64,000 bases of DNA from Rhizobium binae (GTDB lineage: Bacteria > Pseudomonadota > Alphaproteobacteria > Rhizobiales > Rhizobiaceae). Shown here piece by piece: positions 8,675 to 51,004 of the stretch. The translations under genes were made by a program, and so were the position numbers. The first letter of the stretch is position 1; the number at the start of each line of letters is the position of its first letter. The stretch covers positions 62,001 to 126,000 of the forward strand of contig NZ_CP071611.1 of the NCBI RefSeq assembly GCF_017357225.1. The letters run 5' to 3'. Under the pieces are notes generated by a model. That model made no database searches. It had not been told where the DNA came from and was given only the letters and a program-made list of their open reading frames with translations.

Positions 8675-9196
8675 TCAATTTGCCGGGGTCAGCGTCATCG
8701 ATGCGCTGCCTGCGGCAACGTTGAGACCAAGCTGGCCTGTCAGGCTGACCGTCTGCAGATGAATCGAGCCGGAGGTGCCGCCGACCAGGAGATTGGCGCC
8801 GACACCAGCGCCGACTGTCGCCTCCGCGCTGGCGCCGACATAGAGGCCGGCAAGCGACCCGCGGTGATAGCCGGCGGTCGGCGCGAAGACGGCCCAGATC
8901 AGGCGGCTGCGCGTGGTGAAGCCGAGATCGATGCCGAGCTTTCTGACTTCGCCGGTATAGTGATCGACGAGTTCGTTGCCGACAATCGACTGGAAGACGC
9001 AATCGGCTTCCTTGGACGAACCGAGCACGTAGCCCGCGCCGCCGCTGATATCGCAGGTGAGATAGCCGATCTTCACACCATTGCGTAAATCCGGCTCTTC
9101 ATATGTCCTGGTGACGGGATCGGCGGCACCAGCCACCCCCACGCCGACGAACGTCAACGATACCGCGGCAAAGGCCGTCGCAAGAGTTTTGTTCAT
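8675..9196 (-). CDS. DUF992 family exported protein
   Basis: A 173-residue protein with an N-terminal signal peptide (MNKTLATAFAAVSLTFVGVG, cleavage after AGA). The mature domain resembles DUF992, a periplasmic family of alphaproteobacteria rich in small residues (VKIGYLTCDISGGAGYVLGS). No enzymatic motif is visible and the function is unknown. ATG 9196 was chosen because it begins the signal peptide and has an AGGAGAG site. It stands alone. Confidence 0.75.
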   Translation of the reverse strand: MNKTLATAFAAVSLTFVGVGVAGAADPVTRTYEEPDLRNGVKIGYLTCDISGGAGYVLGSSKEADCVFQSIVGNELVDHYTGEVRKLGIDLGFTTRSRLIWAVFAPTAGYHRGSLAGLYVGASAEATVGAGVGANLLVGGTSGSIHLQTVSLTGQLGLNVAAGSASMTLTPAN

Positions 9197-11363: not shown

Positions 11364-11759
11364 CTATCGCAGCTCCTGTGCGACTTCCCAGACATGGCCC
11401 GACGGATCGCAGAAGGCTGCAGTTCGGCGCCCCCAGGGACGATCGATCGGACCATTGAGCAACGCCACCCCAAGTCCGAGCAGCTTCGCGCAGACCTTAT
11501 CGACGTCATCGACCTTGATCGTCAGCAGGATGCGCGCACCGGAACCGGATGCGGCCACGGCCGATGGTTCGACCAGCTGCGGCGCCTGTGTCGCCTCGAG
11601 CAGATTGATCATTGCTCCCGAGAAATTCAGAACCGAGCAAACCGGGTCCTGATAGACGACGTCGGCGGCAAAAACCTTTCGATAGAAACTCCTGGCATCA
11701 TCGATCTTATCGACGAACAGCGTGATCACCTCGATCTCGGCTGGCAGCATGGCAATCAT
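11364..11759 (-). CDS. VOC-family (glyoxalase-like) protein
   Basis: A 131-residue single-module vicinal-oxygen-chelate protein. It begins with the beta-strand pattern EVITLFVDKIDDARSFYRKV and ends with FCDPSGHVWEVAQEL, the typical metal-ligand glutamate segment. The family includes glyoxalases, dioxygenases and antibiotic-binding proteins, and the substrate cannot be told. It lies about 95 bases downstream of the ABC-F gene on the same strand. Confidence 0.8.
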   Translation of the reverse strand: MIAMLPAEIEVITLFVDKIDDARSFYRKVFAADVVYQDPVCSVLNFSGAMINLLEATQAPQLVEPSAVAASGSGARILLTIKVDDVDKVCAKLLGLGVALLNGPIDRPWGRRTAAFCDPSGHVWEVAQELR

Positions 11760-26748: not shown

Positions 26749-26779
26749 AAGTTCCCGCGGCGAATACCGCTTGGAACTT
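26749..26779. terminator. Hairpin at the repC stop codon
   Basis: AAGTTCC-c-GCGG (26749-26760) pairs with CCGC-tt-GGAACTT (26767-26779) with a 6-base loop. It overlaps the repC stop at 26779. There is no T-run, so it may be a terminator, an mRNA-stabilising hairpin or a binding site. Confidence 0.5.
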
Positions 26780-28071
26780 CATCCCGTTTTGCCTCTGATC
26801 GGCAAATTGGTGCGGGCAAGCGCCATCAACATCGGTCCGATGGCAAATTCTCCCCTTTCGGCACGGCGCGTCAAGTCGCGGAGATAGCCGCCGGCGGAGT
26901 TGATGTGCCCTGACCTTTCGAGGACACAAGCGATGACGGTGGCCGCATTTTCAGGCCCCATGATCTCACAAGCCTGTTCGTAGGCCGACGGACTGACCCC
27001 GAGCATCGAACGAACGACCACCGCCGCTGCCATCAGATCGCGCCAGGAGCCAACCGAGCCCTGCGGTCCGTAGGCCGCGATCTCGGGGCAGGCCTGCAGC
27101 ACCAGGCCCAGCGGAAAGGATTTGAGCCCGCCGCTGCCGACGGAGGCAGATCTGGCATCCCGGACCTGGCCGTTCGTCTCTTCCACTTTCTGCATTCGGG
27201 CTGCCGGTTCGGCCCGACCTGCCGATCGATCGTCCGCCGTTGCGCCCTGCTTCGTTTCGAAGCTTGGTTCAAATTCAGTGATGGAATGTGGGTTTGAATT
27301 CTGTATGTGCCGCTCATAATGTGGGGCATTGCCGCTTTGATTTCGTGTTTCTTCGTGCAGTTCCAACTGATTGGTAATTTCGTCGCGCAGCAGTTCCAAT
27401 TCGTCGAGCCCGGCGGCGATCTGGGCAGCCGATGGCGAGCGTGGCAGTCGTTCGACAATATCGCGGAAATGCAGATGGATCCGACCCCAGTCGCCGGCGA
27501 CCCCCTCTTCCAGCGCCATCTCGATGAGCTTGGCAACGTCGCGACGGCATAGCGTCAGGCGCTCTCTGAGCCGTTGAAGATACAATCGTTCGGCCGCCAC
27601 CTCTGCCGCCAGTCGCTCGATCTCGTCCGCGCGCGCGAGCAGCGGCGCCAATGAGAAGCCGAATGCCTCGCGGATGTCCCCACCCTGCTCCTTGCGGGCA
27701 TAACGCTTGCCGTTCGGGCTGTCCTTGCGGATGAGCAGCCCAGCCTCGACCAGGCTCGCCAGGTGACGGCGGATCGTCTGCTCCGCCATTCCATGCGCGC
27801 GCAGGGAGAGCTGGGCGTTGGACGGGAATACGACAAGCCCATTGTCCTCGGAGAGCTCTCCCTTGGGATAAAAGCTTAGCAGCGCGTTGAGGATGGCGAG
27901 CGCCCGGTCGGTGATGCCGAGCAGCGGCTTGGCCTCACACAGGGCGCGGTAGAGTTTCCACTTGTCGATCGATTGGCCGGGCTCGATTCTTCGGGCCGCC
28001 GCCTGGCTTGCCAACATGCCAAACGTCATCAGCCGCCGCCCGAAGGGCGTCGTCACATTTCCACTTTCCAT
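26779..28071 (-). CDS. repC: Plasmid replication initiator RepC
   Basis: A 430-residue RepC, the initiator that is rate-limiting for repABC plasmid replication and acts on an origin inside its own gene. The N-terminus (MESGNVTTPFGRR) and the winged-helix region (LRAHGMAEQTIRRHLASLVE) are characteristic. The C-terminal domain contains SPSAYEQACEIMGPENAATV and GGYLRDLTRRAERGEF. ATG 28071, after GAAGGCGAAG, was preferred over TTG 28089. It is third in repABC and separated from repB by the antisense-RNA region. Confidence 0.95.
   Translation of the reverse strand: MESGNVTTPFGRRLMTFGMLASQAAARRIEPGQSIDKWKLYRALCEAKPLLGITDRALAILNALLSFYPKGELSEDNGLVVFPSNAQLSLRAHGMAEQTIRRHLASLVEAGLLIRKDSPNGKRYARKEQGGDIREAFGFSLAPLLARADEIERLAAEVAAERLYLQRLRERLTLCRRDVAKLIEMALEEGVAGDWGRIHLHFRDIVERLPRSPSAAQIAAGLDELELLRDEITNQLELHEETRNQSGNAPHYERHIQNSNPHSITEFEPSFETKQGATADDRSAGRAEPAARMQKVEETNGQVRDARSASVGSGGLKSFPLGLVLQACPEIAAYGPQGSVGSWRDLMAAAVVVRSMLGVSPSAYEQACEIMGPENAATVIACVLERSGHINSAGGYLRDLTRRAERGEFAIGPMLMALARTNLPIRGKTG
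27245..27385. other. AT-rich segment inside repC, candidate oriV
   Basis: This part of repC is visibly richer in A and T than its surroundings. It includes an inverted repeat TTCAAA (27268-27273) and TTTGAA (27293-27298). In several repABC plasmids the replication origin lies in an AT-rich part of repC. The position here is inferred. Confidence 0.45.
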
Positions 28072-28130
28072 TTTCTTCGCCTTCTTCAAGGCAAAAGATC
28101 ACGGCTCACCAAATTCGGTGCCAAAGACTC

Positions 28131-28220: not shown

Positions 28221-29270
28221 TTATTGATCTCCGTTCTTCGTCGAATCCTGTGTCTTCTCGAACGCCTCGTAGAGGCGATCCAGATTGCTGGCGATGTAGG
28301 CTCCAAAGGCGGATGCCTTTTCTGCCTTCAGCGCGATGGTGAACTGCTTTCCATCATCCTTGATCTTCGCCTTGACGGCTCCGTCCTGGCGCTGCCAAGC
28401 GCGAGCTACGGGCTGAAGCGCAGCGGTGGACGAGGGTTGATGCTTCCTGCTGATGAAGGCAACGAGCATGTCGAAGCGGGCATCCGGCTCCGCCGTCTCG
28501 AACTCCACCGACCTGGTGAACTCGATCGCCCGAGCGGCGATGTTTTCTGTCTCGAATTTCACAGAAAGATCATGCCAGCGGTCACGGCCGGTGGTCTTGG
28601 CCGCGCCGATCGCAGCCAAGACTTCGGCTGGAATCCGCTTGGTGACGGACAGCATCTTGGAAACCGTGGTCTTGTCGGCGCCGAGGGCCGACATGATCGT
28701 ATCCCTGTCGAAGCCCAACGTGTCGAGCCGGTCGGCGAACATCGTCCTCTCGATGAAGGACAAATCGGCGCGCGCCGAATTCTCCTGTCCCTGAGCAATG
28801 ACGTGGTCGCGATCGTCTAGCTTCTTGACCACCGCGCGGACGGGCCGGCCGAGCTCTTTTGCAGCGCGGGCGCGGCGATGCCCGAAGGCGATCTGATATC
28901 GGCCGTCTTTCTCGGGATGCGGACGCACGAGGATCGGCGAATCCTGGCCGCGCAGACGAATCGCCTCGACCAGCTCGCGGAACTGCTCGTCGGTATGGAC
29001 CAGCCGATCCGTCACGAAGGAATCTTCGATCAGCCCGGGATCGAGATCGACCACCGTCTCGCCGCTCGCCAACTGCTCTTCGATCACCTTGGCGGCATCC
29101 GCCTTCGCAGCCAGTGCATCAATGCTGCGCGTGACGGCCCCGAGAGCGCCGATCCCTTTATAGGTGATGTGCTGCCTCTCATCGCGATGGGTCGGCTCAT
29201 CCTCGTTGTTTACCGCAGTAAACTTCTTGGAGTCGTCCATCAGGCCAGAAAGGAGATTCTTACGCGCCAT
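28221..29270 (-). CDS. repB: Plasmid partition protein RepB (ParB family)
   Basis: A 349-residue ParB-type centromere-binding protein. The N-terminal ParB/Srx domain contains RPHPEKDGRYQIAFGHRRAR (about 118-137). The helix-turn-helix region reads MSALGADKTTVSKMLSVTKR. It binds the parS sites and works with RepA. The start ATG 29270 lies 42 bases after repA. One parS copy lies within its first 21 codons, so its N-terminal residues are encoded by a centromere site. Confidence 0.95.
   Translation of the reverse strand: MARKNLLSGLMDDSKKFTAVNNEDEPTHRDERQHITYKGIGALGAVTRSIDALAAKADAAKVIEEQLASGETVVDLDPGLIEDSFVTDRLVHTDEQFRELVEAIRLRGQDSPILVRPHPEKDGRYQIAFGHRRARAAKELGRPVRAVVKKLDDRDHVIAQGQENSARADLSFIERTMFADRLDTLGFDRDTIMSALGADKTTVSKMLSVTKRIPAEVLAAIGAAKTTGRDRWHDLSVKFETENIAARAIEFTRSVEFETAEPDARFDMLVAFISRKHQPSSTAALQPVARAWQRQDGAVKAKIKDDGKQFTIALKAEKASAFGAYIASNLDRLYEAFEKTQDSTKNGDQ
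29208..29223. promoter_or_regulatory. parS site 1 (inside the repB 5' end)
   Basis: GTTTACCGCAGTAAAC fits the repABC centromere pattern GTT-N4-GC-N4-AAC. It lies inside the repB coding sequence. An identical 16-mer lies 82 bases away at 29290. Confidence 0.85.
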
Positions 29271-29312: not shown

Positions 29313-30527
29313 TCATTTCCGCCCCCACGCCTTGTGGATCAGATCGACAATTTCGGTGTTGACCGCATCCATTGCCTCCATGGCGCGGTCGTAGGTCGCC
29401 CGGGTAAACTGACTTCGCTCGACCTCATAAAGCGTCTGGTTGGTCATCGCCGCATCTGAAATCGCCACGCTGCGCAACATCGGATTGGTGAGCACGTGGT
29501 TCTTGAACATCGACCGCATGAAGGCGACCATCTGTGTCTGCGGCCCATCCTGTGGATCGTAGCGGGTCACGAGATACCGCAGCCAGTCGAGGTGCATGTT
29601 GCCGCCGGCGCCCTTCAGCGTGTTCAGCACTTCACCAAGCATCTGCAGGAACTGGCACATCGACATGACATCGAGCATCTGCGGATGAACGGTGATCAGG
29701 ACCGCCGTCGCGCCGCAAATGGCGCTCATCGTCAAAAAGCCGAGTTGGGGAGGGCAGTCGATGATGACGACGTCGTAGTCGTCGGCGACCGAAGAAAGCG
29801 CCTCGTCCAGCCGCGCGAAGAAGACGCGTCCATAGTCGCCTGCCTTGCCCTGAGCGAGGACCCGGGGCGTGTCATGCTCGAATTCCATCAGCTCGAGGTT
29901 GCCCGGCACCAAATGAAGGTTCGGGAAATTGGTCGGCCGGATCACCTCCCGCAGCGGCCTCCGCCGATCGTCGTAGCGAATGGCGGCGTAGAGCGTCTCG
30001 TTCTCGTTGACGTCGAACTCCGGCTGAAAGCCGTGGATGGCCGAGAGAGACGCCTGCGGGTCGAGATCGACGGCAAGGACGCGGTGACCTGTCAGGGCGA
30101 GGTGCTGGGCAAGATGCGCCGCACTTGTCGTCTTGCCGCTACCGCCCTTGAAGTTGACGACGGCGACGACCTGCAGATGTTCGTGGCCGCGGCGATGGCG
30201 CACATAATGTGTTCCGGCGCGAGCATTGTGCTCGAGGAAGGCGCGCATCTCCTCCATCTGTTCCGCGGTGTAGGACCGACGGCCCGACGGCGTAACCTGG
30301 GGGAGGGCACCCTTGCCCTCCAGCGACAGATTGCGAAGATAGCCGCTGGTCACGCCGAGAAACCGCGCCACTTCGGCAAGCTGAAATTCCCTGAGCCCCT
30401 TCAGCGCGCGCGGCGGAAACATCTCGAGTCGATGCTGCTTCAGCTTGTCGGATAGTTCCTGCGCCTGACCGATGATCAACTGATCGACCTCGGAAATTGC
30501 TTTCTCTATTTGCGGTGCCATATTCAT
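29313..30527 (-). CDS. repA: Plasmid partition ATPase RepA (ParA family)
   Basis: A 404-residue ParA-type ATPase with an N-terminal DNA-binding region (QLAEVARFLGVTSGYLRNLS, about 48-67). It has the deviant Walker A KGGSGKTT (about 129) and Walker B VVIIDCPPQLGFLT. It segregates the plasmid with RepB and usually represses the repABC operon. ATG 30527 follows only a weak ribosome site, and a hairpin lies 12 bases upstream, so RepA translation may be limited. Confidence 0.95.
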   Translation of the reverse strand: MNMAPQIEKAISEVDQLIIGQAQELSDKLKQHRLEMFPPRALKGLREFQLAEVARFLGVTSGYLRNLSLEGKGALPQVTPSGRRSYTAEQMEEMRAFLEHNARAGTHYVRHRRGHEHLQVVAVVNFKGGSGKTTSAAHLAQHLALTGHRVLAVDLDPQASLSAIHGFQPEFDVNENETLYAAIRYDDRRRPLREVIRPTNFPNLHLVPGNLELMEFEHDTPRVLAQGKAGDYGRVFFARLDEALSSVADDYDVVIIDCPPQLGFLTMSAICGATAVLITVHPQMLDVMSMCQFLQMLGEVLNTLKGAGGNMHLDWLRYLVTRYDPQDGPQTQMVAFMRSMFKNHVLTNPMLRSVAISDAAMTNQTLYEVERSQFTRATYDRAMEAMDAVNTEIVDLIHKAWGRK

Positions 30528-40091: not shown

Positions 40092-41897
40092 TCAACCGGC
40101 CAATTTGCCGCGAATATACGTTCGCCAGCCGCCGAGTGACGTGATGTCCTCGGCGCCGCTCACCGCATGAGCCTCGCAGAGAAAACCGGAAACGCTCGTA
40201 CCGTCGTCGAGCGCCACTTTTCCAATACCGAGCGGAGCCGGGATCTTTTGGACGAAACGCCCGAAAGCATCGGCAGGCATGGCCCAGACCTCAACCTCCA
40301 GACCGGAGCCCCGATAGTCAGTTTCGCGGATGAGACCCGGCTTCGGCGGCACCGTGCCCGGCAGCACGAAGAGACGATAGTCGCCGGTCGTGCGGCAGGT
40401 CTTGACCAGCCGCGCGCCGGTGTCGGTCAGCTCGTGATTGAGCGGCATGCCGGTCAGGTGCGCACCAACCACGACAATCTCGACGAAGCCGTCATCAGCA
40501 GCCGCAACGCGGCTCGCGTCAGGGATCGCCGCTTGCCGGTCGATGCCCATGCCTGATGTCGCAGCCCGGTGCAGCGCATCGGCAAGTGGCGCCAGAGCAT
40601 CGTCCGTGAAAGCGGGCGCGATCACGGTAATGCCGCCGGGCAGACCGCCCTCCGCGAAGCCTGCCGGAACGGCGATCGCCGCGCAATCAAGCAAGTTGAC
40701 AAAATTGGTATAGCGCCCGAGACGGCCGTTCAGCACGACGGGATCGGCGAGCATATCGACGACCGTGTAGGTGGTCGGTGCAGTCGGCAGCAGAAGCACG
40801 TCGACCTTTCCCCATTCGGCTTCAGTCTTCCGGCGCAGTTCTTCCAGCCGATATCGGCCATTGAAGGCGTCGACCGCGGTGCGGCTCCTGGCGCCTTCGA
40901 TGATCCCCCGTACCGTCGGGTCGAAATCGGCTGCGTTCGTGGCAAGGAAGGGCTCGACCGCCGCCAGGCGTTCGGCGACCCATGGCCCATCATAGAGGAG
41001 GGCGGCGGCCTCGCGGAAGGGTGTGTAATCGAAGGGGACAATGGTCGCGCCCAGTGTTCTCGCCCGCTCGATCGACTGGTCGTAGAGTGCCTCTACCCCC
41101 TTGTCGCCGAAGAATTCCCGCTCCCCGCCGGTCAGGACGCCGATCCGCAACCCCGACACCGGCAGCTTCGCCGGCTCGGCTCGACGCGAGAAAGGATCGG
41201 CAGCGTCAAATCCCTCCGCGACCTTGCGGATCGCGACGCCGTCGCCGACGGTCGGGGCGAAGATCGTGATGCAGTCGAGGCTCCTGCAGGCCGGAATAGT
41301 GCCGGTATTCGGGAGAAGCCCCGGCGTCGGCTTGATGCCCACCAGATTGTTGAAAGCGGCCGGCACACGGCCGGAGCCCGCCGTATCTGTGCCGAGCGCG
41401 AAGGCGGCGAGGCCGGAGGCAACCGTAACCGCTGAGCCCGAGCTCGAGCCGCCGGATATATAGGCCGCATCGAAGACCGAACGTGGCGCCCCATAGGGCG
41501 AGCGCGTGCCATTGAGGCCGGTGGCGAACTGGTCGAGATTGGTCTTGCCTATGATGATGGCGCCGGCTGCTTTCAACCTTGCAACGACCGTGGAATCGAC
41601 GTCTGGCCGATACTCATAGGCTGGGCAGGCGGCGGTCGTCGGCAGACCGGCGGCATCGATATTGTCCTTTACCGCGAAAGGCACGCCCCAAAGGGGCAGG
41701 CTGTTTGCTTCAGGCGCGCGCACCATCAGAGCTTTGGCGGCAGAGCGTAACTCTTCATCCGGCACCACGGTAATGAATATTGCCGGATCTTTCGAAGCGG
41801 CACGGCGGGCAATCACCTCTTCGATGATGTCGAGCGGCGTCAGGCCGGATTGATAGGCCGCGCGGAGGCTTGAGAGATCGAGAATGGTCGGCAGCAT
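40092..41897 (-). CDS. atzF: Allophanate hydrolase (AtzF type)
   Basis: A 601-residue amidase-signature enzyme that splits allophanate into CO2 and ammonia. The Ser-cisSer-Lys triad motifs are visible: PFAVKDNID (Lys, about 74), AYISGGSSSGSA (about 146-157) and GTDTAGSGRVPAAF. The C-terminal allophanate-hydrolase domain is at about 470-601 (LTDTGARLVKTC and FLCEAHAVSGAEDIT). It is the last gene of the operon, 3 bases after the carboxylase. It would complete guanidine (or urea) breakdown. Confidence 0.93.
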   Translation of the reverse strand: MLPTILDLSSLRAAYQSGLTPLDIIEEVIARRAASKDPAIFITVVPDEELRSAAKALMVRAPEANSLPLWGVPFAVKDNIDAAGLPTTAACPAYEYRPDVDSTVVARLKAAGAIIIGKTNLDQFATGLNGTRSPYGAPRSVFDAAYISGGSSSGSAVTVASGLAAFALGTDTAGSGRVPAAFNNLVGIKPTPGLLPNTGTIPACRSLDCITIFAPTVGDGVAIRKVAEGFDAADPFSRRAEPAKLPVSGLRIGVLTGGEREFFGDKGVEALYDQSIERARTLGATIVPFDYTPFREAAALLYDGPWVAERLAAVEPFLATNAADFDPTVRGIIEGARSRTAVDAFNGRYRLEELRRKTEAEWGKVDVLLLPTAPTTYTVVDMLADPVVLNGRLGRYTNFVNLLDCAAIAVPAGFAEGGLPGGITVIAPAFTDDALAPLADALHRAATSGMGIDRQAAIPDASRVAAADDGFVEIVVVGAHLTGMPLNHELTDTGARLVKTCRTTGDYRLFVLPGTVPPKPGLIRETDYRGSGLEVEVWAMPADAFGRFVQKIPAPLGIGKVALDDGTSVSGFLCEAHAVSGAEDITSLGGWRTYIRGKLAG

Positions 41898-41900
41898 GGG

Positions 41901-44900
41901 TCAGCACTCCTCCAGAACAACAATGATGTCGCCCGCTTTGACGTTTCGTCCCGGCCCGGCGCGCAGGTCGCGGACGCGGCCTGCCGCATGGGCGGTGACA
42001 TTGATTTCCATCTTCATCGATTCGATGATGGCGAGTGTATCGCCAGCCGCAACCGGCGCGCCCGGCTCGACCAGCAATTTCCATATGTTGCCGGGTACGG
42101 CGCTGGCGACCCCGAAGCAGCCGTCGGGAATATCCCCGTCCGGGCTTTCGCCCGTGCCTTCGTCGGTGACAAAGCTGTCGAGCCCGGCGTCCTTCCAGCG
42201 CTGGCGTTCAGCATCGAAGGCGGCTTGCTGTGTTGCCTTGAAGCGGCCAATCGACGCCGCGTTCGCCTGCAATTCCCTCTCGTAGGCGGCATAGGAGAAT
42301 TCCGTCTCCTCGATCCGAACGGGATAGCCTCCGTGCGGGAAGGCGGCGCGCGCCTCCGTCAGCTCCTGATTGCTCACCGGGAAGAAACGGATCTGGTCGA
42401 AGAAGTTCAGCAGCCAGGGCTTGCCCCTCGCAAAGGCCGGCGTTTCCCGCCACGTGTTCCAGACCTGGATGGTACGGCCGAAGAGCTGATAGCCGCCCGG
42501 TCCTTCCATGCCGTAGATGCACATATAGGCCCCGCCGATACCGACCGCGTTTTCCGGCGTCCAGGTGCGGGCGGGATTGTATTTTGTCGTGACGAGACGA
42601 TGGCGCGGGTCAATCGGGGTCGCAACCGGAGCGCCGAGATAGACATCGCCGAGGCCCAGGACGAAGTAGCTCGCGTCGAAGACGATATTTCGGACGGCTT
42701 GCTGGTCGGGAAGACCGTTGATGCGCCGAATGAACTCGATGTTATCAGGGCACCATGGCGCATTTGGGCGGACGAGTTCCTGATACTTGCGCATGGCAAG
42801 CTCCGCATCCGGATCGTTCCACGACAGCGGCAGGTGCACGATACGGCTCGGCACCTTGACCTCCTGTGCTGCCGGCAGCGTGGTCTCGATCTCGCAGAGC
42901 AGCCCGAGCAGGCGCCGACGCGTCAGCTGCGTGCCATCATAATGGATCTGCAGCGAGCGGATGCCTGGCGTCAGATCGACGATACCGGGCAGGCGGGCCT
43001 CGACGACAGCCTGCATCAGCAGATGAGCCCGCAGCCGGAGCGCGATGTCGAGTGTCATCGGCCCATATTCGACGAGCAGATTGTCGTCGCCCTGGCGGCG
43101 ATAGACGACCGGAACCGGACCTTCCTCGCTGACGCCGACGATTGGCGAACCCGTCGCTTCCGTGGGCCGTCGCACCGCCGGGCCGGCGATCGGATCTGTC
43201 GGCCGGGCCACGGCGTGAAAACGGATACGGTCGCCCGGCTTGAACTGCCCCATCTTCCATTGCTCGTCACGCGCGATCACCGCCGGGCAGACGAAACCGC
43301 CGAGGCTCGGACCGTCAGGCCCGAGAATGATCGGCATATCGCCGGTGAAATCGATCGCTCCGATCGCATAGGCGTTGTCGTGCAGGTTGGACGGGTGAAG
43401 CCCTGCCTCGCCACCGTCACGGCGTGCCCAAAGCGGGGCGGGGCCGATAAGGCGCACCCCGGTGCGGGCGCTGTTGAAATGCACTTCGTACGTTGCGGAG
43501 AACAGTGTCTCGATATCTCCATTCTGAAAGAAATCCGGGGCGCCATGCGGACCGTAGACGACGCCGACATCCCATTCTCGGGACAAGGTCGCCGGCTCGG
43601 CGGCGGGCTTGGCCGGTTCCACCGGGGCATGCCGGGCGAAATGCAGCACATGCCCGGTCTTGAGTGTGCCGGTGGCGTTGCCGCCAAACTGGCCAAGGCC
43701 GAAAGTCGCCCGCGAGCCAAGCACGACAGGCGCGGCAAAACCGCCTGCAACGGCGAGATAGGCGCGCTGTCCAGGCCCTTCGATCGTACCGACCGACAAC
43801 ACCTGGCCCGCCCGGATCAAGACCGGCTCGTCGTGGGGAAGCCTGATCCCATCGCATGTCATCGCCATCCGCGCGCCGGCGAGGGCGATCGTCTGATCGG
43901 CATAAAATCGCAGGGTCGGACCGGAAACCGTCAGTTCCAGTGCGGCCGTCTCGTCGGCATTGCCGACTAGGCGGTTGGCATGGCAGAAGGAGCGCTCGTC
44001 CATCGGCCCGCTCGGCGGCACGCCGACGTGCCAAAGGCCGAGCCGGCCCGGCAGTTCCTGAATGCTCGACTGCGCCCCGGGTGCGATAACCTCGATGATA
44101 TCGGGAACGAAGGCGAAGTCGCGCAGCGCCGTCGTGGCCACCTTGCCGCCGGCAAGCATTTCGGAATTGGCAATCGCCCGGAGATAATCAAGATTGGTCT
44201 CGATGCCTGATATCGCCGTCGCAGCAAGTGCTGCCTTCAGCTTCTCGATCACGCCAGGCCGATCGTCGGCCGCCACGATCAGCTTGGCAAGCATTGGGTC
44301 ATAGAAGGGGGTCACCTCGGTTCCGGTCTCGATCCAACCGTCGATGCGGGCATCCTCGGAAAAGACGACCTCGGTAAGCAGTCCGGCGCTCGGGCGGAAA
44401 TCGGCATGCGGCATCTCTGCATAGATGCGCATTTCGATCGCCGCACCCTTCGGGGTCAGCGCTCCAGCGCCCGAGAGCACGTCCTCGCCCGCCGCCTGCC
44501 GGATCATCCATTCGACGAGATCGATACCGAAGACGGCTTCGGTGACGGGGTGCTCGACCTGGAGGCGGGTATTGACTTCAAGGAAATAGAATTCCTCCCG
44601 GAGCGGATCGTAGATGAATTCGACCGTGCCGGCCGATTCATAAGAGACCGAGCTTCCCAGATCCACCGCCGCCTTGTGCAGCCGCGCGCGTGTTTCCGCG
44701 GACAGGCCGGGGGCAGGCGTTTCCTCGACAACTTTCTGGTTTCTCCTTTGCAGCGAGCAGTCGCGCTCTCCGAGCGCGATCACTCTGCCCTGGCCGTCGC
44801 CGAAGATCTGCACCTCGACATGGCGTGCTTCGGCAACGAAACGCTCGATATAGACACGCGCGTCGCCGAAGCTGGCCCGCGCCGTCCGCTGCACGCTTTC

Positions 44901-45440
44901 GAAAGAGGTCTTGAGACCGGTCGCGTCGGCACAGAGCTGCATGCCGATACCGCCGCCGCCGGCCGTGCTTTTCAGCATGACGGGATAACCGACGGTCTCG
45001 GCGGCCAGGAGCGCATCTTCGACACTGCGCAGCAGATCGGTGCCGGGCAGCAGCGGCACGCCGCTCGCTTTTGCCAATTCACGCGCCGTGTGCTTCAGGC
45101 CGAAAGCCGACAGATGCTCCGGTCGCGGACCGATGAAGGCGATGCCTTCTGCGGCGAGCCGCTCTGCAAAGCCGATATTTTCCGAGAGGAAGCCATAGCC
45201 GGGGTGCACGGCCTCTGCACCCGTCGCTTTGCATGCGGCGATGACGGCATCGACGTTCAGATAGCTTCCGGCCGCGGACGCCGGTCCAAGGCGCACGGCT
45301 TCGTCGGCGAGCAGCGCCGGCTTCGAGAAGCGATCGGCATCGGAATAGACGGCAACCGAGGCAATACCCATCTTCTTCAATGTCCGGATAATACGGATGG
45401 CGATTTCGCCGCGATTGGCGATGAGAACCTTGGCGAACAT
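41901..45440 (-). CDS. Biotin-dependent guanidine (or urea) carboxylase
   Basis: A 1179-residue single-chain biotin enzyme. Domains in order: biotin carboxylase (1-450; LIANRGEIAIRIIRTLKKMG and the ATP-grasp KSTAGGGGIGM), carboxyltransferase AHS2 then AHS1 (about 470-1050), and biotin carrier (1110-1179, biotinyl lysine in ESMKM). Such proteins are routinely called urea carboxylase (uca). The guanidine-I riboswitch upstream and the adjacent DUF1989 pair instead indicate guanidine carboxylase, which makes carboxyguanidine. I cannot identify the carboxyltransferase residue that separates the two activities, so the substrate call rests on context. Confidence 0.9.
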   Translation of the reverse strand: MFAKVLIANRGEIAIRIIRTLKKMGIASVAVYSDADRFSKPALLADEAVRLGPASAAGSYLNVDAVIAACKATGAEAVHPGYGFLSENIGFAERLAAEGIAFIGPRPEHLSAFGLKHTARELAKASGVPLLPGTDLLRSVEDALLAAETVGYPVMLKSTAGGGGIGMQLCADATGLKTSFESVQRTARASFGDARVYIERFVAEARHVEVQIFGDGQGRVIALGERDCSLQRRNQKVVEETPAPGLSAETRARLHKAAVDLGSSVSYESAGTVEFIYDPLREEFYFLEVNTRLQVEHPVTEAVFGIDLVEWMIRQAAGEDVLSGAGALTPKGAAIEMRIYAEMPHADFRPSAGLLTEVVFSEDARIDGWIETGTEVTPFYDPMLAKLIVAADDRPGVIEKLKAALAATAISGIETNLDYLRAIANSEMLAGGKVATTALRDFAFVPDIIEVIAPGAQSSIQELPGRLGLWHVGVPPSGPMDERSFCHANRLVGNADETAALELTVSGPTLRFYADQTIALAGARMAMTCDGIRLPHDEPVLIRAGQVLSVGTIEGPGQRAYLAVAGGFAAPVVLGSRATFGLGQFGGNATGTLKTGHVLHFARHAPVEPAKPAAEPATLSREWDVGVVYGPHGAPDFFQNGDIETLFSATYEVHFNSARTGVRLIGPAPLWARRDGGEAGLHPSNLHDNAYAIGAIDFTGDMPIILGPDGPSLGGFVCPAVIARDEQWKMGQFKPGDRIRFHAVARPTDPIAGPAVRRPTEATGSPIVGVSEEGPVPVVYRRQGDDNLLVEYGPMTLDIALRLRAHLLMQAVVEARLPGIVDLTPGIRSLQIHYDGTQLTRRRLLGLLCEIETTLPAAQEVKVPSRIVHLPLSWNDPDAELAMRKYQELVRPNAPWCPDNIEFIRRINGLPDQQAVRNIVFDASYFVLGLGDVYLGAPVATPIDPRHRLVTTKYNPARTWTPENAVGIGGAYMCIYGMEGPGGYQLFGRTIQVWNTWRETPAFARGKPWLLNFFDQIRFFPVSNQELTEARAAFPHGGYPVRIEETEFSYAAYERELQANAASIGRFKATQQAAFDAERQRWKDAGLDSFVTDEGTGESPDGDIPDGCFGVASAVPGNIWKLLVEPGAPVAAGDTLAIIESMKMEINVTAHAAGRVRDLRAGPGRNVKAGDIIVVLEEC

Positions 45441-45443
45441 CGA

Positions 45444-46100
45444 TCAGTCCTCGCCGTCCCAGACCAGCACGCGGACCGGTGTCGGATCGAAGCCGTTGCA
45501 GGGATTGTTGATCTGCGGGCAGTTGGAGATGACGCAGAGCACGTCCATTTCAGCTACCAGCTCGACATAGTCGCCGGGCGCGGAAATACCGTCGACGATG
45601 GTCATCTCGCCATTCGGCTTGATCGGGACATTCATGAAGAAGTTGATGTTCGGCACGATATCGCGCTTGCTCATGCCGTGTTTGCTGACCTCGAGCACGA
45701 AATTGTCGCGGCAGGCATGCAGGTATTTGGTGCCGTGGCCGAAGCGCACCGTGTTGCTTTCGCACGAGCAGGCTCCGGCGGAGGTATCGTGCCGGCCGCA
45801 GCTGTCGGCCGTCATGACAAGCATGACATTGCCCTCGTTCGAGATGATCTGCGTGCCGACGCCGATATAGGCTCCGCCCTGCGCCCGCATCGTGTCCTGG
45901 TTGGAATAGCGTTCGGCAAAGTCATCGGCGCGATAAAACAGCGTGTCGATCGCCTGCTGGCCGTAGCTGTCTTCGATGCGGATCGTCTGCCCCTTGCGCA
46001 CGATGCCGGACCACGGCGCTTCGGCCGGGATGAAATGATCCTGCACGGCGGTTTCGAGGCTGCGCGATGCGGCAGTGTTGATGAAATCGGTCATCGTCAT
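45444..46100 (-). CDS. DUF1989 protein, UAAP1-like carboxyguanidine deiminase subunit
   Basis: A 218-residue DUF1989 protein (urea carboxylase-associated protein 1). The cysteine-rich segment SCGRHDTSAGACSCESN (about 87-103) is characteristic. Homologues pair with a second DUF1989 protein to form CgdAB, which converts carboxyguanidine to allophanate. It lies 5 bases after UAAP2 and 3 bases before the carboxylase. The role is from family and riboswitch context. Confidence 0.85.
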   Translation of the reverse strand: MTMTDFINTAASRSLETAVQDHFIPAEAPWSGIVRKGQTIRIEDSYGQQAIDTLFYRADDFAERYSNQDTMRAQGGAYIGVGTQIISNEGNVMLVMTADSCGRHDTSAGACSCESNTVRFGHGTKYLHACRDNFVLEVSKHGMSKRDIVPNINFFMNVPIKPNGEMTIVDGISAPGDYVELVAEMDVLCVISNCPQINNPCNGFDPTPVRVLVWDGED

Positions 46101-46105
46101 CTCCC

Positions 46106-46927
46106 TCAGGCCAACATCGCGGCGTTGTTCTCGAAGCCGCGAATGGCTTCGGCGGTTGCCGTGCGCGCGAGATCATCGAGAGCGGGCGCGGCTGCGCGAA
46201 AGCGCGTCACGATCACCGGCTTCGGCGCGTAGACTGGGTCAGGATCAAGCGGATGCGGGCAATTGGAAAATCCGACGATCATGTCCATTTCGGCGCGCAG
46301 TTCGGCATAATCGCCGCTGTTGGAAAGCTTGCCGCGCCAGTTGAAGCCGCCGTCGTCGCCGACGCGGACAGGAGCGAAGAGATTGAGGATCGACGGAATA
46401 TCACGCCTGGCGAGCCCGAGCTTGCCGGCAACGAGCACGAGATTGTCGCGGGTGTTGCGGGTTTTGACGCCAGGATATTTTATGGCGTTCGAGGCCGCCG
46501 TCGAGCCGCCCATCAGGCAGTCATGAGCACCGGAACTGTCCTCGATCAGCGAAAACATCACCCGGCCCATATCTGAAAAGATGACACGGCCCTTGCCGAG
46601 CGCAGTCGTCCACTGAACCTTGACCGTATCTGCGAGATTGAGCCTTTCGCTCGTGTCAACGGCGTTCCAGGCGACCAGCGCCACGGTCGCTCCGCCTTCC
46701 CCCTGATCGATGCGGAGCGCTTCGCCGCGCTTCAGCATAGTCGACCAGTACCAGCCGCCGGGGATGGTCTCCTGATGAATGATCGCGGCCGCATCGATTG
46801 CAGGGGCGGGCAGCGGGCTCGGGGCCGGCAGGGCCTTCGGCGCGAACTCCAGCCCCTTCTTCTGATGTTCCTCGTAACGCTGCCTGTTGGCGGCGATTTC
46901 TTCGGGCGAGCGTCTGACATGCATCAT
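46106..46927 (-). CDS. DUF1989 protein, UAAP2-like carboxyguanidine deiminase subunit
   Basis: A 273-residue DUF1989 protein (urea carboxylase-associated protein 2). It begins with a charged helix (RRSPEEIAANRQRYEEHQKK) absent from UAAP1. The core contains EDSSGAHDCLMGGSTAASNA, aligned to the cysteine-rich segment of UAAP1 but with fewer cysteines. ATG 46927 overlaps the transporter ATPase stop by 4 bases (ATGA). It should form a heterodimer with UAAP1. Confidence 0.85.
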   Translation of the reverse strand: MMHVRRSPEEIAANRQRYEEHQKKGLEFAPKALPAPSPLPAPAIDAAAIIHQETIPGGWYWSTMLKRGEALRIDQGEGGATVALVAWNAVDTSERLNLADTVKVQWTTALGKGRVIFSDMGRVMFSLIEDSSGAHDCLMGGSTAASNAIKYPGVKTRNTRDNLVLVAGKLGLARRDIPSILNLFAPVRVGDDGGFNWRGKLSNSGDYAELRAEMDMIVGFSNCPHPLDPDPVYAPKPVIVTRFRAAAPALDDLARTATAEAIRGFENNAAMLA

Positions 46928-47754
46928 GGTTTTTCTCCTGACGGACTGGAAGCCGGGTCGTCCCGGCGATGGCCCAGAGAAATGACCGGGCCGTCCCGGT
47001 CGGGGCTGAAGATGGACGGCGCGCCGGCAAGCCTGGGCGGCCAGATGGAAATGTCCTTGGTGATGGTCGCGCCGTAGCGCTCCTTCTCCTCCGGGCGGTT
47101 ACGCCGCCGCTCGAAGGCGACGACCCGCGTCGCCAGCGTGAAGGCCTCGCGCATGTCGTGCGTCACCATGACGACGGTCATCTGCGTTTCGTGCCAGAGC
47201 CGCTTCATCAAGGTATGGATTTCGGCGCGAATGCCGGGGTCCAGCGCCCCGAATGGCTCGTCGAGCAACAGCACTTTCGGCTTCATGATGAGCGCCTGCG
47301 CCAGCGCCAGGCGCTGCTGCATGCCACCGGAAAGCTGTGCCGGGTATTTATCCTCGGCGCCGGTAAGGCCGACTTCGCCGATCAGCCGCCGCGCCTCGTC
47401 GACCGCGCTGCGGCGAGCGGCGCCGAAAAGCTTTGCCTTGCAGCGCGCCGCAGAAAATTCGCGGCCGAGCAGCACATTGCCGAGGACGGTCAGATGCGGG
47501 AAGACGGAGTAGCGTTGGAAAACCACGCCGCGATCCGGCCCCGGCTCGAGCGGCAACGGTTCACCGTCAAGCCGGATGGCGCCCCGTGTCGGTCGTTCCT
47601 GGCCGAGGAGCATGCGCAGGAATGTCGTCTTGCCACAGCCGGACGGGCCGACAAGGGCGACGAAAGCGCGTGAGGCAACGGTCAGCGACACGTTCTCAAG
47701 CACGATCTGGTCGCCATATTCCTTCCAGACCCTTTCGATCACCAGCTCGCTCAT
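46924..47754 (-). CDS. ABC transporter ATPase (nitrate/taurine type, probably guanidine)
   Basis: A 276-residue ATPase of the TauB/SsuB/NrtD family. Walker A is GPSGCGKTT (about 37), the signature is LSGGMQQRLAL, and Walker B is VLLLDEPFGALD; the switch motif is VTHDMREAF. The C-terminal 45 residues are a charged extension beyond the usual end. ATG 47754 overlaps the permease stop (ATGA). It powers the importer encoded with it. Confidence 0.9.
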   Translation of the reverse strand: MSELVIERVWKEYGDQIVLENVSLTVASRAFVALVGPSGCGKTTFLRMLLGQERPTRGAIRLDGEPLPLEPGPDRGVVFQRYSVFPHLTVLGNVLLGREFSAARCKAKLFGAARRSAVDEARRLIGEVGLTGAEDKYPAQLSGGMQQRLALAQALIMKPKVLLLDEPFGALDPGIRAEIHTLMKRLWHETQMTVVMVTHDMREAFTLATRVVAFERRRNRPEEKERYGATITKDISIWPPRLAGAPSIFSPDRDGPVISLGHRRDDPASSPSGEKP

Positions 47755-48569
47755 GCCTGCTTCTCCAGCTCCGACCATGGGAAGAGAGCGACGCGGATGC
47801 GATCGAGGATGTAATTCATGACCACGGCGAGCAGCGTGATCCAGACGACATAGGGAAAGATCATGTCCATGGAGAGGTAGCGGCGCACGAGGAAGATACG
47901 GTAGCCAAGGCCGGAATCCGACGAGATCGCTTCGGCCGCAATCAGGAACAGCCAGGCAGGACCGAGCTGAAGCCTGAGACAGGTGATGAGCCGCGGCAGG
48001 ATCTGCGGCAACACGACGCGAAGGCCGATCTGCCACGAGGAGCCCCCGAGCGTCTCTGCCTTGACGATCTGTTCGCGCGGCAGTTCCAGTGCCTTCAGCG
48101 CAAGGTCTCGGATCATCGTCGGCGCGACGCCGATCGCGATGAGTGCGATCTTGGAGGCTTCTCCAAGCCCCATGACGATGAACAGGATCGGTAGCAGCGC
48201 CAGCGGCGGCACCATCGAGATAACGGCGACGAAGGGGGAGAGGAGCGCCCGGAGGTAAGGCAGCATGCCGATCAGCATGCCGATGACGAGTGCGGTGACA
48301 GTGGAAATGCCGAGACCGGCAAACAGCCGTACCAGGCTCGCCGCCGTATCAGACCAGAGCAGGTATTCGCCGGTGCGCGGATCAGCGACGAAGACCAGGC
48401 GATTGATCGCATCGGCGAAATCTGCGAAACCCGGCAGCAATTTGTCATTGGTGTTTTCCGCCAGTCGCGCCGCCGAGCCGAAAGCATAGGCGACGATTAG
48501 CAGCACGAAGGGCAACAGCGTCAACGCAAGCTGCGCGCCCCGGCTCGGTCTCGTGTTGATCCAACGCAT
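47751..48569 (-). CDS. ABC transporter permease (nitrate/taurine type, probably guanidine)
   Basis: A 272-residue BPD_transp_1-family permease with about six helices (LALTLLPFVLLIVAYAFGSA and LVIGMLIGMLPYLRALLSPF among them). The ATPase-contact loop reads EQIVKAETLGGSSWQIGLRV. ATG 48569 with GGAGC upstream was chosen over an in-frame ATG at 48608. It lies 63 bases after the binding-protein gene. Confidence 0.88.
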   Translation of the reverse strand: MRWINTRPSRGAQLALTLLPFVLLIVAYAFGSAARLAENTNDKLLPGFADFADAINRLVFVADPRTGEYLLWSDTAASLVRLFAGLGISTVTALVIGMLIGMLPYLRALLSPFVAVISMVPPLALLPILFIVMGLGEASKIALIAIGVAPTMIRDLALKALELPREQIVKAETLGGSSWQIGLRVVLPQILPRLITCLRLQLGPAWLFLIAAEAISSDSGLGYRIFLVRRYLSMDMIFPYVVWITLLAVVMNYILDRIRVALFPWSELEKQA

Positions 48570-48632
48570 GAGAAAAGCTCCGCAGATGAAGGATGGCGGC
48601 GTGGGCAAGCCACGCCGCCGCTCGAGCGACGC

Positions 48633-49706
48633 TCAGAGCGAGCCGTCGGCGGCTGCTTTCATGTAGGTCTCGGTAAAGCGCAGCTTGACGTTGCCGCTGT
48701 CGCCGAGGATCTTGCCATCCGGCATTTCGATGCCGATCACGTCCGCCGACGGTGCACCGCTGCCGAGCAGGCCCTTTTCGAACAGGAAGTTGCGGACGAG
48801 ATCCATCGTCTTCGGCAGGCTGCCCGACGCGGTAAAGGCGACGGCATCAGCCGACTTGGCAAACAGCTTGGTGGCGGCAAGCTGGGATTCGAAGCCCTTG
48901 AGATCCGTGCCCGACGCCGAGCCCATCGCCTCGCGTGCAGCCTTGCCGTCGGCGCTGTCTGATGTCAGGAGCGCTGCTGTCTCATACCAGATGCCGGCGA
49001 GCGCCTTGCCGAAATTCGGATTGTCCTTCAGCACGCCGGTATTGGCGACCATCAGGTCGATGATCTCGCCCGGCACCTGCGAACTGTCGAACACTTTCTT
49101 CGCCGTGGGATCCTCCAAAATGGTCGAGACCAGCGGGTTCCAGGTGACGACCGCGGTCACGTCAGCCGTCTTGTAGGCAGCGACCATGTCGGCGTCGGAG
49201 GTGTTGACCACCTTCACATCGCGCTCGGTCATCTTGATGCTTTCGAGTGCGCGGGCAAGCAGATAGTGGGAGACGGAAAATTCGACGAGATTGACACTCT
49301 GACCCTTGATGTCGGCAAGGCTCGTCTTGTCTTTCAGGATGACCGCATCATTGCCGTTCGAAAAGTCGCCGACGATCACGGCCGTCGTATCGACGCCGCC
49401 GGCTGCCGGGATTGAGAGGCCGTCCATATTGGTGAGCGTCACGGCATCGAAGGCGCCGGCCGTATACTGGTTCATCGATTCGACATAGTCGTTGAACTGG
49501 GTCACCTCGATATTGATGCCGTATTTGTCGGCCCATTTCTTGACGATGCCGTGATCGGCGGCATAGCCCCAGGGCATCCAGCCGACGTAAATCGACCAGG
49601 CTACCTTGAAGTCGGTCTTCTGTTCGGCTTTCGCGATCGAACCGAGGCCCAGAGCCAAGGACGCCGTCAGTGCGGTAATGGAAAGAAGCTTCGAAAAAGT
49701 CTGCAT
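48633..49706 (-). CDS. ABC transporter substrate-binding protein (probably guanidine)
   Basis: A 357-residue periplasmic binding protein of the NMT1/TauA/SsuA type. The signal peptide is MQTFSKLLSITALTASLALG, with cleavage after AKA. The mature domain begins with WSIYVGWMPWGYAADHGIVK, and aromatic residues there could pack on a small cation. It is the first gene of the operon and directly follows the riboswitch. ATG 49706 lies 6 bases after AAAGGGGA, a site that can pair with CCCTTT upstream. Confidence 0.9.
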   Translation of the reverse strand: MQTFSKLLSITALTASLALGLGSIAKAEQKTDFKVAWSIYVGWMPWGYAADHGIVKKWADKYGINIEVTQFNDYVESMNQYTAGAFDAVTLTNMDGLSIPAAGGVDTTAVIVGDFSNGNDAVILKDKTSLADIKGQSVNLVEFSVSHYLLARALESIKMTERDVKVVNTSDADMVAAYKTADVTAVVTWNPLVSTILEDPTAKKVFDSSQVPGEIIDLMVANTGVLKDNPNFGKALAGIWYETAALLTSDSADGKAAREAMGSASGTDLKGFESQLAATKLFAKSADAVAFTASGSLPKTMDLVRNFLFEKGLLGSGAPSADVIGIEMPDGKILGDSGNVKLRFTETYMKAAADGSL

Positions 49707-49714
49707 TGAAATTC

Positions 49715-49769
49715 CCCTTTGCTTTTCTTCAAAAGGGATCGGCAATGACCATCGTGCCGCCAATCCCTT
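49715..49769 (-). promoter_or_regulatory. Riboswitch expression platform with alternative hairpins
   Basis: Hairpin A pairs AAGGGATTGGC (49769-49759) with GCCGATCCCTT (49743-49733), 11 bp with one wobble, followed by a short T-stretch. Hairpin B would pair the same CCCTTT (49737-49732) with AAAGGG (49720-49715), which is the ribosome binding site of the binding-protein gene. The two cannot form together, so the ribosome site can be open or hidden. Whether control acts on termination or translation is not decided by the sequence. Confidence 0.6.
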
Positions 49770-49778
49770 GGCTTACGA

Positions 49779-49882
49779 GGTCTCCCGGGTTTTTATCCCG
49801 CCGTGCACCCGGCAGGATGTCTCCCCTGCCGGTGGCAGCTCTCGGACCAGTCACGCCTTGCGACGCCGGAACCCTAGCCACC
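49779..49882 (-). promoter_or_regulatory. Guanidine-I (ykkC) riboswitch aptamer
   Basis: The minus strand reads CTAGGGTTCCGGCGTC, then GACTGGTCCGAGAGCTGCCA, a closing hairpin CCGGCAGGGGAGACATCCTG with its partner, then GCACGGCGGGATAAAAACCC and GGGAGACC. These are the strongly conserved segments of the guanidine-I riboswitch, in the right order and spacing. It lies directly upstream of the ABC transporter-carboxylase operon and just after the predicted sigma-54 transcription start. Confidence 0.95.
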
Positions 49883-49900
49883 AACTCTGCAAATATCGAA

Positions 49901-50083: not shown

Positions 50084-51004
50084 TCAGTTCTGAAAGGCGC
50101 CCGCAGGCACCATGGTCACCAGCCGGACATCCCGGCGGAAATCCGATGGCGACATTCCGGCGATGTGGCGGAAGGATTTGTTGAAGGCGCTGATCGAGCC
50201 GAAGCCGCTGTCCATCGCCACCTGCAGAACATTGGCGCCCTCGCTCATCAGCATCGCCTGGGCGCGCGACAGCCTGAGCAGCGTCACATACTTGCTGATG
50301 GTCATGCCGGTCGATCGCTTGAATAGGTTCATCGCATATTTCGGGTGCAGATCGGCGGCGCGGGCGATGTCGACCGAATCGATGTCCTGCAGGAAGTTGG
50401 CGGCGATGAAATCGCACATGCGCGCGACGCTGCGCGAGGAATTTGGATGCGGCTGATCGCCCTCCATGCTGACAGTCGTCTTCGATGTCGTCATCGAATA
50501 GGGTTCGAGCGCGATGCGCTCGATGCGCAGCAGCAATTCATCAACGGCGTGCTGAGCCTTGGCGGTATCGCCGGACTTGGAATAGTGGAACCAGCGAGCG
50601 AAATTCTCGTTATCGGCGGCGTCGGTAGCCGAGGTCAGCAGCGTCTCGCCCTTCATCAGCCGGCTGGAAATGCTGATCGGCAGACGCAGCCGGAAGAAAT
50701 ATATGAGCGGCAGATGGGCGCCCGCATAGAGCGAATCATCCGAGGATTCGTCCATCTGATGCGGCTGCCCACCCCAGAAGAGGCACATTTCGCCGGCGTT
50801 CAGCCGGAATTCGTGGTCGCTCATCCGATAATGAACAGTGCCGCGCATCACGTAATTGACCTCGACCTGCGCGTGCCAGTGCGGCATGGCCATGACGAGC
50901 GGATGGGCATGAAACATCTGCAGCGCCGTCGGCGAACCCTCGATGCTGCTGGCGCCGGGCCGGTAGATTGCATGCGTACCGATCTTACTTTCCGCCAAAT
51001 CCAT
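50084..51004 (-). CDS. AraC-family transcriptional regulator
   Basis: A 306-residue regulator of the MelR/AraC type. The N-terminal cupin contains HAHPLVMAMPHWHAQVEVNY and the C-terminal pair of helix-turn-helices is at about residues 200-290 (YAMNLFKRSTGMTISKYVTL and VAMDSGFGSISAFNKSFRHI). It diverges from the sugar ABC operon starting at 51090 and probably activates it in response to the transported sugar. It lies upstream of the guanidine operon on the same strand, but the sigma-54 promoter separates them. Confidence 0.88.
   Translation of the reverse strand: MDLAESKIGTHAIYRPGASSIEGSPTALQMFHAHPLVMAMPHWHAQVEVNYVMRGTVHYRMSDHEFRLNAGEMCLFWGGQPHQMDESSDDSLYAGAHLPLIYFFRLRLPISISSRLMKGETLLTSATDAADNENFARWFHYSKSGDTAKAQHAVDELLLRIERIALEPYSMTTSKTTVSMEGDQPHPNSSRSVARMCDFIAANFLQDIDSVDIARAADLHPKYAMNLFKRSTGMTISKYVTLLRLSRAQAMLMSEGANVLQVAMDSGFGSISAFNKSFRHIAGMSPSDFRRDVRLVTMVPAGAFQN

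Follow-up and report, generated by a model that had tools for sequence, protein, structure and literature searches.

A predicted guanidine uptake and degradation operon of Rhizobium binae with a guanidine-II riboswitch nested in the ATPase coding sequence

Genes and riboswitches of the operon

We analysed a stretch of 64,000 nucleotides from Rhizobium binae (hereafter the window), covering positions 62001-126000 of a 219,475-base contig in a genome of 7.06 Mb. On its reverse strand, at window positions 40092-49888, lies an operon that starts with a guanidine-I riboswitch and continues with the three genes of an ABC importer (substrate-binding protein, SBP; permease; ATPase), followed by cgdA, cgdB, the guanidine carboxylase gene (gca) and atzF. 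A second aptamer, of the guanidine-II class, is held whole in the last codons of the ATPase gene. We read the locus as an operon for guanidine uptake and degradation under two guanidine riboswitches, the guanidine-II element being nested in coding sequence; from sequence comparison we give this reading a probability of about 0.75.

A first-pass annotation of the same DNA had proposed an operon of an ABC importer, two DUF1989 proteins, biotin carboxylase and allophanate hydrolase, with a guanidine-I (ykkC) riboswitch directly upstream of the importer genes. Open reading frames (ORFs) and NCBIfam and Pfam matches support both the gene order and the families. A search with the guanidine-I Rfam model, which that annotation had suggested, places RF00442 at 49780..49888; its 82.7 bits exceed the gathering score of 63 (E 3.2e-13 in the full window). 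The proposed operon extent of 40092..49882 is right at the start and ends 6 bases short, as the guanidine-I aptamer reaches 49888; the guanidine-II aptamer had been missed.

The guanidine-II aptamer (46953..47002, reverse strand) matches RF01068 with 40.3 bits, above the gathering score of 32 (E 1.4e-4 in the window, 2.2e-5 in the 10.2 kb around the operon). It consists of two hairpins with ACGR loops, hairpin 1 at 47002-46983 and hairpin 2 at 46966-46953, joined by a linker. The whole genome gave one guanidine-I and one guanidine-II match; in one of the searches the filters were tighter, so that weak matches may have been missed. The ATPase gene (46924..47754; ORF and family match) reads through both hairpins and stops at 46924, where an ATGA (46924..46927) overlaps its stop with the start of cgdA by 4 nt. 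A Shine-Dalgarno (SD)-like AGGAGA of cgdA, named by eye, lies at 46934..46939. RefSeq too carries the ATPase through the aptamer, giving the same extent of the coding sequence in Rhizobium sp. K102, and RefSeq-derived tables show the 4-nt ATPase/cgdA overlap in this strain and in R. leguminosarum 248. For the latter (plasmid pRle248c, L232) the table has no entry for the carboxylase and nothing but short pieces around atzF; this strain may have a broken degradation half, or the table, being incomplete, leaves the genes out.

Downstream, cgdA (46106..46927) and cgdB (45444..46100) encode the predicted subunits of carboxyguanidine deiminase. They are two DUF1989 (PF09347) paralogues, one of UAAP1 type (TIGR03425, 290 bits) and one of UAAP2 type (TIGR03424, 334 bits), both above the NCBIfam cut-offs. 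The carboxylase (41901..45440; TIGR02712, 1785 bits) and the allophanate hydrolase AtzF (40092..41897; TIGR02713, 790 bits, above cut-off) complete the set on the same strand. According to the available part of PMC11410670, guanidine carboxylases carry Asp at positions 1330 and 1584 of the K. lactis urea carboxylase. The window enzyme has Asp697 at the position of K. lactis Asn1330, the residue that marks urea carboxylases, and Asp932 at that of Asp1584. The motif used for this comparison was recovered in 69 of 80 named relatives, with Asp in all 69, and was not found in the other 11. The urease alpha subunit is encoded elsewhere in the genome, and a genome search found no second TIGR02712 protein above cut-off.

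The labels "urea carboxylase", UAAP1, UAAP2 and "urea SBP" come from the databases. The earlier proposal of a guanidine-degrading rather than a urea amidolyase operon stands at sequence level, through the guanidine-I match, Asp697 and Asp932, the UAAP1/UAAP2 pair and the separate urease: every sequence test made here supports guanidine above urea. All four proteins of the guanidine carboxylase/CgdAB/AtzF pathway are present together with the Asp signature, and we found nothing that sets the window enzymes apart. This re-annotation is not the new part, because it is in print for such operons of other bacteria (PMC12186494, in the excerpt available).

The SBP (48633..49706, reverse strand) is of the NitT/TauT type (TIGR03427, 548 bits) and is predicted to serve a guanidine importer; its AlphaFold 2 model has a pLDDT of 85.3. 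The permease (PF00528, same strand) is listed as an ORF at 47751..48608, its true start being probably further in; a RefSeq homologue has 819 nt. We infer the specificity of the importer for guanidine from the operon alone.

Between the guanidine-I aptamer, which ends 73 nt upstream of the SBP ATG, and the SBP start lies a leader (49707..49779) with three competing strands A, B and C, the last containing the SD. We compared 61 Rhizobium leaders (38 distinct), several of them shortened by the start-codon rule; the strands are conserved in those covered through to the start codon. Two alternative folds are available: an A:B hairpin (-19.3 kcal/mol) followed by UUUU, and a B:C hairpin (-11.7 kcal/mol) that hides the SD. 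A consensus scan found no intrinsic terminator after guanidine-I, though the A:B hairpin with its UUUU exists, and RNAalifold on the leaders alone, including the shortened ones, gave just a weak hairpin. The guanidine-I leader is immediately preceded, on its own strand, by the gene of a MelR-related transcription regulator (50084-51004; 168.9 bits, below the cut-off of 253), whose K102 homologue is annotated as a helix-turn-helix protein; this regulator is a possible extra control of the operon.

The proposed placement on a repABC replicon is likewise confirmed by RepA (29313-30527), RepB (28221-29270) and RepC (26779-28089), with matches to the ctRNA and the S-element as well. Plasmid records matching the query number 151, and 125 of them hold at least 80% of it in one place. 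Closest within this set is Rhizobium sp. K102, with 93.6% across the full query.

Distribution of the nested arrangement

Guanidine-I is found in 87 and guanidine-II in 98 of 120 genomes of the genus. In 86 of the 87 with guanidine-I, guanidine-II follows 2767-2810 nt downstream on the same strand. Outside such pairs lie 27 of the 113 guanidine-II matches in these genomes (e.g. G297:C1:969637-969685) and 2 of the 88 guanidine-I matches.

From the 86 pairs we took 60 loci and added the window. The ATPase frame spans the full aptamer in 58 of the 60 and in the window, with the stop 20, 23, 26 or 29 nt beyond the aptamer. In the two exceptions it stops within the aptamer, 14 nt before its end (L081), or 85 nt before the aptamer end (L121). 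Of the 59 nested rows, 47 have a stop that overlaps the following start (44 ATGA, 3 GTGA) and 12 do not.

To obtain a wider set of named loci, ten CgdA proteins were aligned and the alignment was used as query; it matched at least 600 stretches, among them 592 relatives, of which the best 80 were used. Some contigs are shared with the Rhizobium set, so that the two are not independent. Our own models, R1 for guanidine-II and R2 for guanidine-I, were applied to these 80. R1 finds guanidine-II in 75 loci at E<=1 and in 71 at E<=0.05, always at most 200 nt upstream of cgdA except in L186, where it is not adjacent to that gene; with R2, guanidine-I is detected in 65 (64 when L186 is left out). This last locus, from Devosia sp. 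Leaf420, has two guanidine-I matches (864-970 and 8868-8975) and guanidine-II at 11690-11739.

The aptamer is nested in the ATPase frame in 46 of the 80 loci; the frame stops inside the aptamer in 9 and before it in 11. In another 10 no ATPase adjoins cgdA, and in 4 an ATPase match stands without guanidine-II. Nesting therefore occurs in 46 of the 66 loci that have both. These figures count weak aptamer matches (E 0.08-0.42) in L174 and L179 (nested), L201 (stop inside) and L204 (stop before). The state of L171 is doubtful, as its ATPase matches poorly (53%) and sits on a very long branch. Among the nested loci are those of Rhizobium, Mesorhizobium, Phyllobacterium, Devosia, Azorhizobium, Niveispirillum, Roseobacter and Rhodovulum. 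The stop precedes the aptamer in Agrobacterium, Xaviernesmea, Allorhizobium, Rhizobium mayense, Xanthobacter agilis, one Parvibaculum locus and others. Mapped onto a tree of the ATPases with the tail left out, the nested state requires 3 changes, compared with a shuffled mean of 17.4, though kinship alone clusters states.

In eight related Rhizobiaceae loci (L142, L148, L150, L154, L156, L157, L158 and L176) the ATPase stop falls after hairpin 1 and before hairpin 2, in every case 14 nt short of the aptamer end, which is an intermediate state. In the Methylobacterium group (L165-L169) guanidine-II precedes cgdA without a matching adjacent ATPase and without a guanidine-I match in the locus. 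Two contigs titled as metagenome-assembled genomes of Exiguobacterium and Candidatus Kuenenia (L173, L192) are probably mislabelled or misbinned; their ATPases fall among alphaproteobacterial ones.

A phylum-wide search of 398 genomes gave 26 new loci (L205-L230). In seven of them, all outside the class of the window, guanidine-II lies 16-218 nt past the cgdB stop and before the carboxylase start. L220, which belongs to that class, has its ATPase frame passing through the aptamer before cgdA. In 18 of the 26 we found no match to CgdA, CgdB or carboxylase. Frames that run through or past guanidine-II in L212, L214, L216, L226 and L230 end in sequences such as GTAYAVWTGIGAVG, endings that we take to resemble those of small multidrug resistance (Gdx-type) exporters.

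Constraint on the aptamer as RNA and as coding sequence

Mean pairwise difference over the 59 nested Rhizobium rows was compared by codon position. For the ATPase body, positions 1, 2 and 3 give 0.035, 0.017 and 0.300; hairpin 1 gives 0.111, 0.022 and 0.072, the linker 0.159, 0.197 and 0.321, and hairpin 2 0.014, 0.132 and 0.013. The 12 third positions of the hairpins average 0.048 against 0.301 for 100 body codons; so low a value turned up neither in the 89 consecutive body windows nor in 100,000 random draws. The 29 nt preceding the aptamer are not frozen (third position 0.316). Asp is written GAC or GAT in a ratio of 237:1 in the aptamer and of 201:93 in the ATPase body.

Stem pairing was assessed in an alignment of 34 distinct rows, which combines the window with 34 of the 46 nested named loci. 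Standard pairs fill 91.4% of the stem pair cells, and both sides have changed in 30 cells as against 11.3 in shuffles that do not keep relatedness (none of 500 as high). In hairpin 2, CCG and CTG exchange Pro for Leu while the pair stays G-C or G-U, and CAG for CGG changes Arg to Gln with an A-U pair replacing G-C: as aligned, the RNA pair is kept in these swaps and the amino acid is not. By this comparison, the RNA structure is shown to be maintained at the expense of codon freedom.

The reading frame leaves a trace of its own. Of the 46 nested named loci, 44 share one frame for hairpin 1, and 39 read hairpin 2 in it as well. Between the WPxR motif and the aptamer lie 20, 23, 26, 29, 35, 41, 44 or 53 nt, all 2 modulo 3, with exceptions of 36 nt (L174 and L179, hairpin 1 still being in frame) and 28 nt (L192 and L194). 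The stop offsets in Rhizobium likewise differ by threes. Because the frame of hairpin 1 is shared and lengths change in threes, we read the frame as having been kept over long divergence.

Working model, alternatives and meaning

In the proposed scheme, guanidine-I in the leader would gate the whole messenger RNA, as known for its class, the exact platform being predicted here. The importer would bring in guanidine, the carboxylase would turn it into carboxyguanidine, CgdAB would deiminate this to allophanate, and AtzF would release ammonia and CO2, following the pathway known for these families. Guanidine-II is described as a translational ON switch in the excerpt of PMC12186494; just before cgdA, it may act as such a switch for the degradation half. 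A ribosome ending the ATPase would read both hairpins as a C-terminal tail and, in the nested Rhizobium loci, stop 20-29 nt past the aptamer, mostly on the cgdA start. Since the aptamer is itself coding sequence, no ribosome can complete the ATPase without melting it; termination follows a few codons beyond, and the aptamer would have to refold between ribosomes. Ribosome traffic could thereby form a second input, with restart on cgdA, making guanidine-II an in-frame, ribosome-gated riboswitch across several alphaproteobacterial families; we advance this extension only tentatively and think it rather doubtful. If true, synthesis of the degradation enzymes would require both bound guanidine and ongoing translation of the importer.

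Several observations weigh against the overall reading. The minimum-energy fold of the window hides the cgdA SD against the linker, which had suggested a general role for the linker as an anti-SD. Over 74 loci this candidate is not supported: linker:SD pairing is no stronger than in shuffles (mean -9.71 vs -9.48 kcal/mol; window p 0.13). It reaches p<=0.05 in three of these loci (L165, L166 and L168), all from the Methylobacterium group and none nested. The guanidine-II region as a whole folds no better than shuffles (z -0.57), and in 21 of 34 rows hairpin 1 lacks its outermost pair. The rows are related and Rhizobium-heavy. Of 54 distinct Rhizobium rows, 50 and 40 leave the alternative frames open across this region, as do 40 and 39 of the 46 nested named loci; we have thus rejected the open ATPase frame as proof of selection, other frames being mostly open too. 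Finally, in a fold search with the SBP model, the nearest solved relatives among the 50 of 1350 matches listed are SsuA and TauA, which bind sulfonates or taurine and not a cation.

The main rival is a nesting without regulatory meaning, in which a compact operon with few stops in any aptamer frame let the ATPase stop come to lie downstream, while guanidine-II works as it does between genes. The open alternative frames fit this account, as do the gaps of just 3-5 nt among cgdA, cgdB, gca and atzF and the aptamers of Agrobacterium and Allorhizobium, which stay outside the ATPase frame. The frame preserved through length changes in threes counts against it, and so do the mere three state changes on the ATPase tree, within the limit set by kinship. 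On balance we lean towards such neutral compaction, at present likelier than an input from ribosome traffic. The absence of an anti-SD rule and of any folding advantage over shuffles would also suit a guanidine-II element that is a functionless relic, since guanidine-I alone could suffice. Its frozen loops, co-varying stems and score above the gathering cut-off make that very improbable.

As for the ligand, the natural inducer or source might be canavanine-derived hydroxyguanidine or another guanidino compound of legumes, with guanidine as an intermediate. A response to hydroxyguanidine is described for the guanidine-I riboswitch of another bacterium (excerpt of PMC10018355), a Vreelandella guanidine-II does not discriminate methylguanidine (excerpt of PMC12508155), and several hosts in the plasmid records are legumes. 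The pathway genes suit guanidine itself, and we regard the hydroxyguanidine alternative as unlikely. A true urea amidolyase operon, as the best-scoring models would have it by name (TIGR02712 urea carboxylase, UAAP1, UAAP2, putative urea SBP), we reject as extremely unlikely: the carboxylase has Asp697 where the K. lactis enzyme has Asn1330, the riboswitches are those of guanidine, and urease is encoded separately.

Operons with two guanidine riboswitches are already known, and the predicted operon under two such switches resembles them. The Vreelandella boliviensis gca/mgdH operon, as far as the excerpt of PMC12508155 describes it, likewise has guanidine-I at the start, one internal guanidine-II, three ABC genes, cgdA, cgdB, gca and atzF. 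Its guanidine-II lies between cgdB and gca, whereas that of the window lies before cgdA and inside the ATPase coding sequence; moreover, neither mgdH nor mgdL stands between gca and atzF of the window, which are 3 nt apart. In Raoultella, Klebsiella and Erwinia (PMC12186494, same excerpt), guanidine-I also stands over importer and deiminase genes with guanidine-II further down, but there guanidine-II controls carboxylase and allophanate hydrolase, while in the window all enzyme genes come after it. With RF01068 (mini-ykkC) in general, the window element shares two ACGR-loop hairpins upstream of a guanidine gene and differs by lying fully inside the upstream reading frame. We found no description of a guanidine-II before cgdA within the ATPase gene in the literature searched, which did not cover the primary guanidine papers. 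Nor did we recognise a precedent for a natural riboswitch inside a coding region from titles and abstracts of open-access literature. The position thus appears to be undescribed within this scope.

Comparative riboswitch discovery searches intergenic regions, according to the part of PMC8632094 available. The ATPase and cgdA overlap by 4 nt in two public records, and there is therefore no intergenic region to search. The guanidine-II loops are read as Asp codons, which makes a clean synonymous test possible. The operon should also be re-annotated, with guanidine metabolism in place of urea metabolism. Finally, if riboswitches can occupy the coding ends of upstream genes, other classes, known or unknown, may be hidden there.

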